Source: Rhodanobacter glycinis (GTDB taxonomy: Bacteria > Pseudomonadota > Gammaproteobacteria > Xanthomonadales > Rhodanobacteraceae). Taken from it: a stretch of DNA of 64,000 nt. The notes beneath the pieces are model-generated. The model was not told the DNA's origin, ran no database searches, and saw only the letters and a program-made list of their open reading frames with translations. Within the stretch, counting starts at the first letter, position 1. Each line of letters starts with the position of its first letter. The position numbers and the translations under genes were made by a program. This document shows, piece by piece, positions 42,502 through 47,544 of this stretch. The stretch spans positions 186,001 to 250,000 of the forward strand of contig NZ_RCZB01000002.1 of assembly GCF_006438785.1 (NCBI RefSeq), read 5' to 3'.

Positions 42502-42566
42502 CTGTGCGATTGATTCGCCATCTACCGATCGCCGCACGATCCGCGGTGACAAGACCCAGGGACAGC

Positions 42567-44072
42567 ATGAACCAGAACATCGACGCCGTCGGCGACGCAC
42601 CCGACTACCCGCAACTGCTTGGCCATCCGCGCCCGCTGTGGATGCTGTTCATGACCGAGTTCTGGGAGCGCTTCGCGTTCTATAGCTTGAGCTGGGCGCT
42701 GGCGCTATACGTGGTGGCGCAGTTCTATCACGGCGATCCGGCGGGGCAGGGCTGGGCCAGCGGCATCTACGGTGCATGGGTGGCGCTGATCTACGCGATG
42801 GGCATCTTCGGCGGTTACATCGCGGACAAGGTGATCGGCTACCAGCGTTCCATCCTCATTGGCGCAGCGGTGATGGCGCTGGGGCTGTTCGCGATCATGC
42901 TGCCGGACAAACAGTTGTTCATGGTCGGCCTTTCGCTGGTGATCGTGGGCAATGGCCTGTTCAAGCCCAACATCTCCTCGATGGTCGGGCAGCTCTACGC
43001 ACGCGATGACGAGCGCCGCGATCGCGGCTTCACCCTGTTCTACATGGGCATCAATGGCGGCGCGCTGGTGGCGCCGCTGCTCACCGGCTGGCTGGCCAGC
43101 TATTTCACCGACACGCCGCTGGAACAGAACTACAAGGCGGTGTTCGGCGCGGCCGGAGTGGGCATGCTGCTGAGCCTGCTGTGGTTCTGGATCGGCCGTC
43201 GCCAGCTCAAGAACGTGGGCCGTCCGCTCGCGGACCAGGCCAGCCGCATGCGCGTGGTGTGGGTGCTGCTCGGCGTGGTGGTGGCGGTGCCGCTGGTCTA
43301 CCTGATGCTGGCGTATGTGGGCGCCGCCTACCTATCGTGGCTGCTGGGGGTGCTGTTCATCGGCGTGGCGGTGATGTTGCTGGTGGAAGGGCAGCGCCAC
43401 GATCGCGTGCAGGTGCACCGGGTGATCGCGATGCTGATCATTTTCGCGTTCAACATGCTGTTCTGGATGTTCTACTTTCAGCTGGGCACGTCGTTCAACT
43501 TCCTGGCGCAGAACCTGGTCGATCGACAGATGTTCGGTGGCTGGGAGTTTCCGGTGGGCTGGTTCCAGTCGGTCAGTCCGCTGGCGATCATCCTGCTGGC
43601 GCCGCTGGTGTCCCTGGTGTGGGCGCTGCTCGCCGCTCGCCGGCGCGAGCCATCCATTCCGCGCAAGTTCGGCCTGGGCCTGGTCTTCAACGGGCTGGGT
43701 TTTGCGGTACTGATGTATGCGTTGTCGCAACTGCTCAATGGCCATGGCCTGATTCCGTTCTGGCCGCTGGTGCTGTGCTACGTACTGCAAACGGTGGGTG
43801 AGCTGTGCCTGTCGCCGATCGGCCTGTCGATGGTGACCAAGCTGGCGCCGCCGCGGCTGGTCGGCCTGGCGATGGGTGGCTGGTTTCTTTCGCTGGCGGT
43901 GGGCGGCAACCTGTCGGGCCTGCTGGCTGGACACATCAGCGGCGACAATGGCATGACCGCGGCGTCGGCGTTGAGCGGTTTCACTTTCAGCTTCTGGTTG
44001 CTGGTCGGCGCCGGCGTGCTGTTGCTGCTGATCTCGCCGTTGATCAACAAGCTGATGCACGGCGTGCGCTGA
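42567..44072 (+). CDS. POT/PTR2-family proton-coupled peptide transporter (first copy)
   Basis: A 501-residue inner-membrane transporter with about fourteen helices. POT signatures are FWERFAFYSLSWALALY (the ExxER-like region of helix 1), GGYIADKVIGYQRSI, GLFKPNISSMVGQLY and FTLFYMGINGGALVAPLL, with the conserved FQLGTSFNFLAQ region. It imports di- and tripeptides with protons. The protein at 46036 is a close paralogue. It follows kynA but has its own promoter. Its last 57 coding/stop bases are repeated as a scar at 45790-45845. Confidence 0.94.
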   Translation: MNQNIDAVGDAPDYPQLLGHPRPLWMLFMTEFWERFAFYSLSWALALYVVAQFYHGDPAGQGWASGIYGAWVALIYAMGIFGGYIADKVIGYQRSILIGAAVMALGLFAIMLPDKQLFMVGLSLVIVGNGLFKPNISSMVGQLYARDDERRDRGFTLFYMGINGGALVAPLLTGWLASYFTDTPLEQNYKAVFGAAGVGMLLSLLWFWIGRRQLKNVGRPLADQASRMRVVWVLLGVVVAVPLVYLMLAYVGAAYLSWLLGVLFIGVAVMLLVEGQRHDRVQVHRVIAMLIIFAFNMLFWMFYFQLGTSFNFLAQNLVDRQMFGGWEFPVGWFQSVSPLAIILLAPLVSLVWALLAARRREPSIPRKFGLGLVFNGLGFAVLMYALSQLLNGHGLIPFWPLVLCYVLQTVGELCLSPIGLSMVTKLAPPRLVGLAMGGWFLSLAVGGNLSGLLAGHISGDNGMTAASALSGFTFSFWLLVGAGVLLLLISPLINKLMHGVR

Positions 44073-44111: not shown

Positions 44112-44792
44112 CTATGTGCCCTTGCCGATTCGCCAGCAGGCTTCAAGAAATAGCCGTCGTTCCGATTTGCCATCAATTTCCGTTGCGAGGCGCTGCGCGA
44201 TGACATCCAGATCGCCGCCGCTCTGCGCGGCCCGACGTACCAGGTGCCCGGCCACGGGCCCGATGCGCCTGGCGAGTTCGACCTCCAGCAGGCGCAAGTG
44301 CGCGGCATCGACGCCAGTCGGGTGGGTGATATCGGCTGGTCCGGTGTCCCGCGATGGCCGGTGTCCGGTCGGGAGATCGTGCGCGGCGTGTCCGCCCATG
44401 GTGGTATCGAGGTAGTCGCACAGGCGATCGATGTGCGGCTGGAGTGGCGGGGGGAACGCATCCATCCAGTGCTGTGCGCTGAGGAAGTACTCCAGGCTCC
44501 TTGATGGCAACACATCCTCGATCCGGAACGGAAGAATCGGTAGTTGCTTGTGCACGGCCCGCTCGACCTCGCGCCGCACCTGGCCCGAGTCGTTGCTGCT
44601 GCCGGAGAAAACCAGAACCATGAGCCGCGCACTGGAAATCGCATCGATGATTTCGGCGGCCCAGTCGGCCGCTGGAGACACGTCGCGCGGTGCGATCCAT
44701 ACGCTGATGCCGCGCGCCTCCAGGCGTTGCACGAGAGTGAACGCGGCTTCCCGATCCGGTTGCGAATAGCTGACGAACAGGTCGTGGGCCAC
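44112..44792 (-). CDS. TIR-domain protein with C-terminal helical domain
   Basis: A 226-residue cytoplasmic protein. Residues 1-130 are a TIR_2-type domain: HDLFVSYSQPDREAA, LEARGISVWIAPRDVSPAADWAAEIIDAISSARLMVLVFS, then QVRREVERAVHKQLPILPFR. Glu75 in the RREVERA helix is at the place of the NADase catalytic glutamate in many bacterial TIRs. After a Pro/His-rich linker, residues about 165-222 (LLEVELARRIGPVAGHLVRRAAQ, LATEIDGKSERRLFLEACW) resemble a helical module seen at the end of some bacterial kinases and cyclases. It starts at GTG 44792, three bases after the sensor gene. A signalling or defence output role is inferred. Confidence 0.85.
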   Translation of the reverse strand: MAHDLFVSYSQPDREAAFTLVQRLEARGISVWIAPRDVSPAADWAAEIIDAISSARLMVLVFSGSSNDSGQVRREVERAVHKQLPILPFRIEDVLPSRSLEYFLSAQHWMDAFPPPLQPHIDRLCDYLDTTMGGHAAHDLPTGHRPSRDTGPADITHPTGVDAAHLRLLEVELARRIGPVAGHLVRRAAQSGGDLDVIAQRLATEIDGKSERRLFLEACWRIGKGT

Positions 44793-44795
44793 GGC

Positions 44796-45659
44796 TCAGC
44801 CACCCAGCATCCGCAGCGCCTTGTCCAGGCTCTTGCGCATGCGGTCGAAGGCGGCCGACAGTGCGGCCACCTCAGGCCCGCCACCACGCGGAAATTCCGC
44901 CGCCGAGGTATCGCCGAGGCTTACCTGGTCGGCTATCCGTGCGATCCGGCGCACCGGGCGGATGACCAGCACATAGAGCGAGGCGTTGACGACCAGCAGT
45001 ACGCTGACGAGCATGGCGGCGATGGCGGTCAGCACGTCGCGGCGGACGCGTCCGGCGCTCGACTCGGCGCTGGCGAATGGCTCCGAGACGATTTGTGCGC
45101 CGACGATCTCGTTGGGCTGCCAGCCGAATCCGTTGTCGCTGCCATAGCGTGCGAGCATCGTTGGCGGTGCCATCGAAGGCAGGCTGTGACAGCTCAGGCA
45201 CCCGGGCTCGACGCGAATCGGGCGCGCCAGGTAAAGGACCCTGCCCAGTGGGGTGTCGCGCGTCCCGCTCACTTGCCTGGTGCTGGTGTCGTTGCGGAAG
45301 CGCTGCACGATGTCCGCTTCCCAGTCGGTTGCGCGGTCACGTGGATTGGTCGGGTTGAGCGTCGCTTCCTTGTAGGAGTAGTCGGGGTGTTCCTTGTGCA
45401 GCGTGAGGAAGTTCTGCGTCGCGGCATAGAACGGCACGCTCTGCGGACGGAACGCGCTGACCATCTTCTCGTCGAGCAGCGGCCCGATCTCGGTTTCCGT
45501 GTAGGAGCGGATCGCCTTGGCGCTGTCCAGCATCAAACCGGCCTGGGCGAGCACCTCGCGCGTTGCGTTTTGCTGCAACGTCGAGGTCACGATCAGGGAG
45601 ATCGCGAACATGCCGAGCGCGAATGCGACTAGCAGTATCAGGTTGATTCGCAGCAGCAC
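44796..45659 (-). CDS. Membrane sensor: Tll0287-like (DUF3365) haem c domain plus HAMP
   Basis: A 287-residue protein with an N-terminal helix (8-28, LILLVAFALGMFAISLIVTS), an extracytoplasmic domain of the DUF3365/Tll0287 type with the haem c motif C154LSCH158, a second helix (about 208-232, VLTAIAAMLVSVLLVVNASLYVLVI) and a cytoplasmic HAMP segment (RPVRRIARIADQVSLGDTSAAEFP) to the end. There is no kinase, cyclase or methyl-accepting domain. The output is probably in trans, and the TIR gene begins three bases later. It starts at GTG 45659 with GGGAG six bases upstream. Redox or gas sensing is inferred from the haem site. Confidence 0.85.
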   Translation of the reverse strand: MLLRINLILLVAFALGMFAISLIVTSTLQQNATREVLAQAGLMLDSAKAIRSYTETEIGPLLDEKMVSAFRPQSVPFYAATQNFLTLHKEHPDYSYKEATLNPTNPRDRATDWEADIVQRFRNDTSTRQVSGTRDTPLGRVLYLARPIRVEPGCLSCHSLPSMAPPTMLARYGSDNGFGWQPNEIVGAQIVSEPFASAESSAGRVRRDVLTAIAAMLVSVLLVVNASLYVLVIRPVRRIARIADQVSLGDTSAAEFPRGGGPEVAALSAAFDRMRKSLDKALRMLGG

Positions 45660-46035: not shown

Positions 46036-47544
46036 ATGAACCAAGCCACCGACACGACGCCGGGCGCCGCGCCCGACTATCCACAGATGCTCGGCCATCC
46101 GCGGCCGTTGTGGATGCTGTTCATGACCGAGTTCTGGGAGCGCTTCGCGTTCTACGGCATGCGCTGGGCGCTGACGCTGTACATCGTGGCGGAGTTCTTC
46201 GGCGGCGATCCCGCCGGCCAGGCCTATGCCAGCCGCACCTACGGCGCCTATCTGGCGCTGGTGTACGCGGCGGCGGTGTTCGGTGGCTATGTGGCAGACA
46301 AGGTGCTGGGCTACCAGCGTTCGATCCTGGTCGGCGCCGTGGTGATGGCGGCCGGCCTGTTCATGATCATGCTGCCGAATCAGCAGATCTTCCTGCTCGG
46401 GCTGTCCACGGTGATCGTCGGCAACGGCCTGTTCAAGCCGAACATCTCCTCGATGGTGGGACGTCTGTACGGCCAGGGCGATCCGCGCCGTGACCGCGGC
46501 TTCACGCTGTTCTACATGGGCATCAATGGCGGTGCGCTGGTGGCACCGCTGCTCACGGGCTGGCTGGCCAGCCATTTCACCGACACGCCGATGCAGCAGA
46601 ACTACAAGCTGGTGTTCCTGGCCTCGGGCATCGGCATGCTGATCAGCCTGGCGTGGTTCCTGATCGGCCGACACCAGCTCAAGGGCGTCGGCCGGCCGGC
46701 GCCGGAACAGGCCAGCCGCATGCGCATGGTCTATGTGCTGATCGGTTGCGCGCTGTCGATTCCGCTGGTCTACCTGCTGATGGCGCAGGCCGGTGCGGTG
46801 GTGCTGCAGTGGTTGCTGAGCGCGCTGTTCGTCGGGCTGTCGGTGATGCTGCTGGTCGAGGGCGTGCGCGAGGGCAAGGTACAACGCGATCGGGTGATCG
46901 CGATGTTGCTGATCTTCGCGTTCAACGTGCTGTTCTGGATGTTCTACGAACAGGCCGGCAGTTCGTTCAACTTCCTTGCGCAGAACATCGTCGACCGCAG
47001 GATGTTCGATGGCTGGGTGTTCCCGGTGGGTTGGTTCCAGTCGATCGCGCCATTGTCGATCGTGTTGCTGGCGCCGCTGGTGTCGCTGGCCTGGGCGTGG
47101 CTGGATCGACGCAGGGCCGAGCCGTCGATCCCGCGCAAGTTCGGCCTCGGCCTGCTGTTCAATGCGCTGGCATTCACGGTGCTGATGTATGCACTGTCGC
47201 GGCTGGTGGACGGCAGCGGCCACATTCCGTTCTGGCCGCTGGTGCTGGTTTATGTGATGCAGGTGATCGGCGAGCTCTGCCTGTCGCCGATCGGCCTGTC
47301 GATGACCACCAAGCTCGCACCGGTGCGCATGGTCGGCTTCGCCATGGGTGGCTGGTTCCTGTCCACCGGCATCGGCAACAACCTGTCGGGCATCTTCGCC
47401 GGACACGTCAGCGGCGAGACCGGCATGACGGTGGCCTCGGCGCTCGGCGGCTTCACTTTCAGCTTCTGGCTGCTGGTGATCCCCGGTGCGCTGCTGTTTC
47501 TGGCCGCGCCGCTGATCAACAAGCTGATGCACGGGGTGCGCTGA
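46036..47544 (+). CDS. POT/PTR2-family proton-coupled peptide transporter (second copy)
   Basis: This 502-residue paralogue of the first POT protein has the same signatures: FWERFAFYGMRWALTLY, GYVADKVLGYQRSI, GLFKPNISSMVGRLY, YMGINGGALVAPLL, EQAGSSFNFLAQ. The E-Q in this last motif (first copy has F-Q) is the more usual POT form, so the two may differ in peptide choice. It ends in LINKLMHGVR as the first copy does. The ATG follows GGGGA. It converges with the MarR gene without a visible terminator. Confidence 0.94.
   Translation: MNQATDTTPGAAPDYPQMLGHPRPLWMLFMTEFWERFAFYGMRWALTLYIVAEFFGGDPAGQAYASRTYGAYLALVYAAAVFGGYVADKVLGYQRSILVGAVVMAAGLFMIMLPNQQIFLLGLSTVIVGNGLFKPNISSMVGRLYGQGDPRRDRGFTLFYMGINGGALVAPLLTGWLASHFTDTPMQQNYKLVFLASGIGMLISLAWFLIGRHQLKGVGRPAPEQASRMRMVYVLIGCALSIPLVYLLMAQAGAVVLQWLLSALFVGLSVMLLVEGVREGKVQRDRVIAMLLIFAFNVLFWMFYEQAGSSFNFLAQNIVDRRMFDGWVFPVGWFQSIAPLSIVLLAPLVSLAWAWLDRRRAEPSIPRKFGLGLLFNALAFTVLMYALSRLVDGSGHIPFWPLVLVYVMQVIGELCLSPIGLSMTTKLAPVRMVGFAMGGWFLSTGIGNNLSGIFAGHVSGETGMTVASALGGFTFSFWLLVIPGALLFLAAPLINKLMHGVR

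Follow-up and report, generated by a model that had tools for sequence, protein, structure and literature searches.

How a membrane receptor that ends in a HAMP domain passes its signal on has been puzzling since Af1503, a model HAMP protein without a recognizable effector, and a two-gene locus of Rhodanobacter glycinis raises the same question. The locus lies in a stretch of 64,000 nucleotides (contig NZ_RCZB01000002.1, positions 186,001 to 250,000 of the forward strand), here called the window, to which all coordinates refer. A first-pass annotation of the window had proposed that a haem sensor without an output domain and a neighbouring TIR protein form a split receptor with a role in signalling or defence.

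The receptor gene (44796..45659, minus strand, as are all features of the pair given below) has a GTG start and encodes 287 amino acids. Its product comprises a first transmembrane helix (45579..45647, about residues 5–27, with a hydropathy window of about 1–29), a periplasmic Tll0287-like domain (DUF3365, sCache_heme; 45078..45575, residues 29–194, 130.6 bits to PF11845), a second transmembrane helix (44964..45041, about residues 207–232, hydropathy window of about 207–236) and, as the last domain, HAMP (44826..44966, residues 232–278, 29.7 bits). The chain stops nine residues past HAMP and carries no output domain, in agreement with the annotated Tll0287-like haem c/HAMP membrane sensor. The only cysteines are the two of the haem c attachment motif CLSCH (45186..45200, residues 154–158), so that an axial cysteine is lacking. 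With a PF11845 domain bearing CXXCH the receptor belongs to the sCache_heme proteins, and its transmembrane helices, HAMP domain and lack of an axial cysteine give it the layout of the NO-sensor class. It is the sole PF11845 match in the genome (4.28 Mb, 17 contigs), its closest named relatives are from Rhodanobacter and Dyella, and its HAMP domain matched an Af1503 HAMP construct at E 0.0059 (phmmer).

The TIR gene (44112..44792; 226 amino acids, GTG start) begins at 44792, three bases (44793..44795) past the receptor stop at 44796, as annotated, and the spacing is comparably short at the TIR loci among the 47 loci described below. The TIR domain (44388..44786, about residues 3–135) scored 75.8 bits against TIR_2 over residues 6–113, and the model of the protein matched solved TIR domains (Foldseek, best E 3.7e-5; mean pLDDT of the model 65.5), which together identify a TIR fold. 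The protein continues for about 90 residues beyond this domain, through a variable linker (44325..44387, about residues 136–156) into a putative docking domain of four predicted helices (44121..44324, residues 157–224).

The annotation had called for a search for conserved adjacency of DUF3365-HAMP and TIR genes, and the family provides it. When 60 genomes were searched, a close receptor was found in 4 of the 36 genomes of the genus (the own genome included), and a close TIR gene in the same four. Among 233 genomes of the family, 19 matched the receptor at E 1e-20 or better; 17 of these matches are receptor orthologues (100% identical in the own genome, 82–92% in the others), and a gene for a TIR protein with the same C-terminal domain adjoins every one of them. 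The other two family receptors are 38% identical and lie in longer frames, with no TIR gene or gene for this C-terminal domain in the stretch fetched. The distribution is patchy, with the pair in 17 of 233 family genomes, and among plasmids and phages nothing matched the TIR protein over 80% of its length. Pooled over 13 sequences and uncorrected, pN/pS was 0.18 for the receptor, 0.14 for the TIR domain and 0.21 for the C-terminal domain, as against 0.69 for the linker; judged by these values, the TIR domain, the C-terminal domain and the receptor are under purifying selection. The receptor and the TIR gene are a maintained unit, though a patchy one. The receptor on one contig labelled Candidatus Eremiobacteraeota (L040) is identical to one in a genome of the own family (G884), and the contig label therefore looks wrong.

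Outside the TIR loci, the C-terminal domain recurs on other enzymes. When 84,980 species genomes were scanned for six exact 8-residue receptor peptides, which is not a census, 47 loci were obtained. Unexpectedly, the last ~60 residues of the TIR protein matched the end of the receptor-adjacent gene in most of the non-TIR loci, where these partner genes encode Ser/Thr kinases, class III cyclases, or both. A profile built from 14 copies of the domain without TIR rows recovered the C-terminus of the TIR protein at E 9.7e-13, with the next match at 0.37 among all candidates of the own genome, which makes this protein the genome's sole confident match. In Pfam, NCBIfam and PDB sequence searches nothing reached the cut-off over this stretch, so that assignment to a named family of these collections by sequence alone was rejected; matches below threshold were scattered (E 0.048 for one protein, 0.078–0.16, and 0.12 and up). 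Modelled alone (AlphaFold2, 72 residues, 53 copies), the domain was predicted with a mean pLDDT of 91.2 to form four helices (9–23, 27–36, 41–49 and 55–70), which accords with the extra C-terminal helical domain of the annotation and, as a predicted model and not a solved structure, with a four-helix bundle of 60–90 residues. Between helices 9–23 and 27–36, the first and second, falls the IGPVA motif of the TIR protein (44250..44264, residues 177–181), which corresponds to the STAC signature LGPx(x)A; across 53 copies of the domain G24 and P25 are invariant and A27 is kept in at least 90%.

Both structure and profile searches gave as best match Af1502, although neither score is significant alone (Foldseek E 0.76, TM 0.51/0.53, 350,542 PDB chains; profile E 0.17 over the IGPIAK of Af1502, 177,635 PDB sequences). 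In VIA-align, Af1502 ranked fourth with a Z of 5.9 over 62 residues, within the range of chance helical bundles, and the other neighbours were AAA+ and HAD proteins, apparently common helical arrangements. A paper on STAC domains, in its accessible parts, places the gene for Af1502 next to that for Af1503, a receptor with nothing but HAMP in the cytosol (PMC4834066). Its authors state that BLAST, HMMER and HHblits fail to link Af1502 to its own kind, and they base STAC homology on where the genes lie, on secondary structure and the pattern of hydrophobic residues, and on an LGPx(x)A motif that joins helices 1 and 2 (PMC4834066). Because Foldseek and the profile search both give Af1502 and the genomic context fits, we call the domain STAC-like, on its motif, predicted helices and genomic setting, the sequence and fold scores alone not being significant.

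With HMMs made here, a STAC gene adjoins the receptor in 45 of the 47 loci, encoding a TIR protein in 14, a kinase in 15, a kinase plus cyclase in 14 and a cyclase in 2; at the two other loci the contig reaches no further than the sensor or just beyond it. TIR proteins carry one STAC copy each, and most kinases and cyclases two. The CXXCH motif is kept in 46 of the 47 sensors, the sole exception being the receptor of Dyella dinghuensis (L043), in which CXXCR replaces it and the TIR partner is retained. Since Ser/Thr kinases and class III cyclases serve as outputs of the same receptor-STAC chassis in other bacteria, the best reading is that TIR is one of several interchangeable outputs. Counting against the best reading are the patchy distribution of the pair, the CXXCR of the L043 receptor and, in 6 of the 45 loci, a STAC gene that, though adjacent, is convergent and shares no operon with the receptor. 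At three loci (L144, L145 and L074) one receptor lies between a STAC kinase and a STAC cyclase, apparently with two outputs per sensor.

Scans that started from the STAC domain scored at most 16 candidates per genome in the class and 15 in the phylum, so that their counts are lower bounds: at least 32 of 369 class genomes and at least 5 of 398 genomes of the phylum sample (own included) gave a match. Like the TIR-STAC gene, the STAC gene is coupled to an adjacent HAMP-terminated receptor in 29 of the 32 class genomes, 25 with the haem type and 4 with the dCache type. CXXCH was seen in 23 of the 25 haem-type genomes, the exceptions being a receptor cut down to its HAMP end at a contig start (G145) and a sensor in two frames with no CXXCH seen (G321), and the four double-Cache receptors also end after HAMP according to Pfam (L133 through a related sensor model, not dCache_1). 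One of the 32 matches (G220) failed confirmation by a second model. In two class genomes (G341 and G346) no receptor was present in the DNA seen; that STAC kinases at two loci (L139 and L143) lack one in the DNA seen counts against the best reading. A haem receptor was adjacent in four of the five phylum matches and a related receptor without CXXCH in the fifth (G750). Divergent STAC domains were also observed on DUF4388-like or roadblock-like proteins (Pfam matches weak or absent) beside output-less double-Cache HAMP receptors (L132–L135, with a small GTPase-like gene besides in L135), and a further STAC protein, ACT-like by a weak Pfam match, lies beside a receptor gene interrupted by a stop (L102:1-1029). 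A HAMP-bearing sensor relative without CXXCH stands beside a STAC kinase at L137:5656-6498.

The reciprocal count classified 77 receptors among the PF11845 matches listed for 276 class genomes. A STAC gene was adjacent to 18 of the 20 HAMP-terminated DUF3365 receptors among the matches listed, as against none of the 20 output-fused receptors and none of the 37 stand-alone DUF3365 proteins of the class sample, again among the matches listed (Fisher p 1.2e-15, ignoring relatedness). The STAC-first scan had already found all 18 positives, and some flanks were short. For one of the two HAMP-terminated receptors with no STAC seen (L216) the contig breaks off after a further 592 bases, in which a kinase begins; the other (L215) has no STAC within 2.4 kb, which counts against the best reading. 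One receptor whose tail reads GGDEF and stops early (L221) was counted as fused, a 3,012-base contig (G290, the same region as L206) was left out, and frames below 240 or above 400 amino acids were partly left out of the classes among the matches listed.

Of five plasmid receptors, drawn from 11 matching records, four adjoin a gene for a kinase that bears two STAC copies; the fifth, on a cyanobacterial plasmid, has no STAC gene adjacent, and it too counts against the best reading. On plasmids of Skermanella (L180:3492-5732), Caballeronia (L182:3483-6614) and Paraburkholderia (L184:3483-5824), the receptor and STAC kinase lie beside type VI secretion (T6SS) genes, in one case together with FecR-domain and PP2C genes. 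The plasmid loci suggest haem-receptor control of T6SS phosphorylation.

That two unrelated genes merely adjoin in R. glycinis might be suspected from their position between two oligopeptide symporter paralogues, which are 73% identical and lie on the opposite strand (42504-44072 and 46036-47544). Such a transporter context is, however, found in just 4 of 14 TIR loci (5 kb flanks), and adjacency of receptor and STAC gene spans Pseudomonadota and Acidobacteriota. The pair is not attributed to chance because the receptor is the sole PF11845 match of the genome, the TIR protein the sole confident match to the C-terminal profile, and the arrangement recurs in 17 of 17 family orthologues. Incidental adjacency was rejected on this family pairing together with 45 of 47 loci and 18 of 20 HAMP-terminated receptors (among the matches listed), and we regard it as extremely improbable.

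The distribution of outputs over the receptors bears on the origin of the TIR member. In a quick, unrooted tree of 64 receptors made with no bootstrap, from which sensors with stops or N or of less than 700 bases were left out, a single branch (SH-aLRT 99) separates the 18 TIR-partnered receptors from the rest, and all outputs together need 6 changes compared with 32.8 in shuffles (64 receptors, long branches). TIR was apparently acquired once, by a chassis that more commonly serves kinases and cyclases.

The claim that the locus is a split receptor, with sensing outside and TIR output inside, is strongly supported by the 17 of 17 adjacency and by the occurrence of the STAC-like domain on kinases and cyclases. 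We consider it fairly probable that the two genes make one such receptor, with HAMP-STAC docking as the route by which a haem signal from the periplasm, probably NO, would reach the TIR enzyme. The receptor would act as a periplasmic haem c (sCache_heme) sensor, probably as a dimer to judge from its family, whose signal would pass through the second transmembrane helix into HAMP and stop there. The STAC-like domain of the TIR enzyme would dock on this cytosolic end, as the genomic pairing, the domain held in common and the precedent of Af1502/Af1503 suggest. In the periplasm, NO binding or a change of haem state may then alter HAMP packing, upon which the docked STAC domains would bring the TIR domains into another spacing or contact; these could assemble and cleave NAD+ via E75, producing a nucleotide signal or a drop in NAD+. 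A comparable relay has been proposed for CbrA, in which, in the parts of the report accessible, STAC packs under the membrane domain and would transmit its motions (PMC13022988).

For the enzymatic step, the annotation had pointed to E75 (44568..44570) as a candidate NADase glutamate, and this residue is indeed kept: it sits in RREVERA, and both E75 and the flanking QVRREVERAV are identical in 15 of 15 aligned TIR orthologues. In phmmer alignments E75 was paired with a glutamate of TIR-STING and not with the catalytic glutamate of SARM1; its catalytic assignment therefore leans on the V-x-K-E motif (here VRREV), by which it may correspond to SARM1 E642. Many TIR domains only bind, and the present one could accordingly be a non-catalytic scaffold that recruits another protein once the receptor fires. 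The alignment leaves SARM1-type catalysis unproven, and the full-length model is weak, with a mean pLDDT of 65.5 and values below 50 at residues 90–111, and was kept out of the judgement of the active site. Against a scaffold stand the invariance of E75 and its surroundings and the kinase or cyclase domain borne by the partner in the other 31 STAC-gene loci of the 47, so that we think a binding-only role unlikely. NAD+ cleavage by the TIR protein through E75 is what the conserved motif leads us to infer.

As to the signal, the annotated redox or gas sensing fits the receptor, and NO is the best-supported ligand by analogy with a HAMP-bearing protein of P. azotoformans. According to the parts of a preprint accessible, this protein, Target 2, is an sCache_heme sensor with two transmembrane helices, HAMP and no axial cysteine that releases NO slowly (PMC12889525). 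NO is favoured because the receptor shares this layout and has no cysteine outside CLSCH, and it is probably the ligand, an assignment drawn from one relative in that preprint (PMC12889525). The same split receptor could instead use its haem to report redox state (quinone, oxygen or superoxide), which is possible but in our judgement rather doubtful: haem c is redox active, and stand-alone members of the family are given redox-related roles in the preprint as far as accessible, but it is Target 2, with the same transmembrane/HAMP architecture and no axial cysteine, that releases NO slowly (PMC12889525).

TIR NADases are common defence effectors, and the pair might be an anti-phage unit in which infection or membrane stress is sensed by the receptor and answered by NAD+ depletion through the TIR enzyme, leading to abortive infection. 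In keeping with this, the TIR domain matches PADLOC and Thoeris models weakly and in part, and the pair occurs patchily, in 17 of 233 family genomes, but the defence models match nothing beyond the TIR stretch. Against the curated full-length NCBIfam TIR defence models the protein reached 27.7 of 220 and 13.8 of 600 bits, and PADLOC matches were partial; the known TIR defence systems (Thoeris, TIR-SAVED, TIR-pAgo and retron-TIR) were rejected, since their matches were partial, confined to the TIR stretch and far below the cut-offs. The neighbours in the window are, moreover, peptide symporters, genes of tryptophan and tyrosine catabolism (4-hydroxyphenylpyruvate and homogentisate dioxygenases, and a tryptophan 2,3-dioxygenase 0.8 bits under its cut-off) and PDH genes, among them a PDH subunit. 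Ten neighbour frames from six other loci gave no PADLOC match, and the five that Pfam could name encode an esterase, a desaturase, a LysR protein, a methionine synthase and a RibD_C protein, while the rest may be spurious. With ordinary nameable neighbours, no PADLOC match among the ten neighbour frames elsewhere and a receptor class that otherwise drives kinases and cyclases, the defence part of the annotation found no support; we judge an anti-phage unit quite improbable and prefer regulation over defence, a role in signalling being supported.

Several parts of the proposed receptor have described counterparts. The closest, as far as the accessible text goes, is the Af1503/Af1502 pair of Archaeoglobus fulgidus, with HAMP as the sole cytosolic part of the receptor and an adjacent, translationally coupled four-helix STAC protein with a GP-A motif (PMC4834066). 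Af1502 differs in being archaeal, in consisting of STAC alone without an enzyme and in its transporter-rich neighbourhood, whereas the Rhodanobacter pair has a TIR-STAC fusion and a haem c Cache sensor. P. azotoformans Target 2 resembles the receptor in its periplasmic haem c Cache, two transmembrane helices, HAMP and lack of an axial cysteine in the parts of the preprint accessible, in the main text of which the term TIR is absent; those parts name no partner gene either (PMC12889525). The SLC5-STAC histidine kinase CbrA likewise couples a membrane part to a cytosolic enzyme through STAC, but is a single polypeptide of transporter and histidine kinase with STAC internal, again in the accessible parts of the two papers (PMC4834066, PMC13022988). 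In the sample searched for CbrA-type SLC5-STAC kinases no frame exceeded 670 amino acids outside the own genome, and SSF frames of Rhodanobacteraceae have 829–1031 residues. SARM1, AbTir and Thoeris ThsB share with the TIR-STAC protein the TIR fold and, presumably, the motif that contains the glutamate, but gave no significant full-length match, and here the partner is a membrane haem receptor.

The annotation had also stated that no system with this pairing was described. For TIR this stands, as the literature searched, with few subscription papers in it, did not yield a paper that links TIR to STAC, to HAMP receptors or to DUF3365; it does not stand for STAC itself, which has been described beside an output-less HAMP receptor in archaea, as the accessible part of that paper shows (PMC4834066). 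Archaeal HAMP-STAC coupling, TIR enzymes and haem Cache domains are already known; their combination, and the use of STAC as a common plug for trans enzymes on haem receptors, appear to be new.

More broadly, and with somewhat less than even confidence, we propose that STAC is a general plug for output-less bacterial Cache-HAMP receptors and that Rhodanobacter and its relatives have a prokaryotic counterpart of Toll-like receptors in split form, whose periplasmic haem sensor of NO would switch on NAD+ cleavage by TIR. If this is true, any STAC-bearing enzyme beside such a receptor, be it kinase, cyclase, kinase-cyclase or TIR, would be its trans output, perhaps also ACT-, DUF4388- or roadblock-like modules, and the plug idea would suggest partners for orphan HAMP receptors of the Af1503 type. 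The common STAC-like domain would give a testable answer to the puzzle of HAMP-ending receptors, together with a rule that predicts pairs of receptor and output across phyla, and its TIR member would place NAD+-cleaving chemistry of the immune type under the control of a gas or redox signal from outside the cytoplasm, in a setting other than phage defence.
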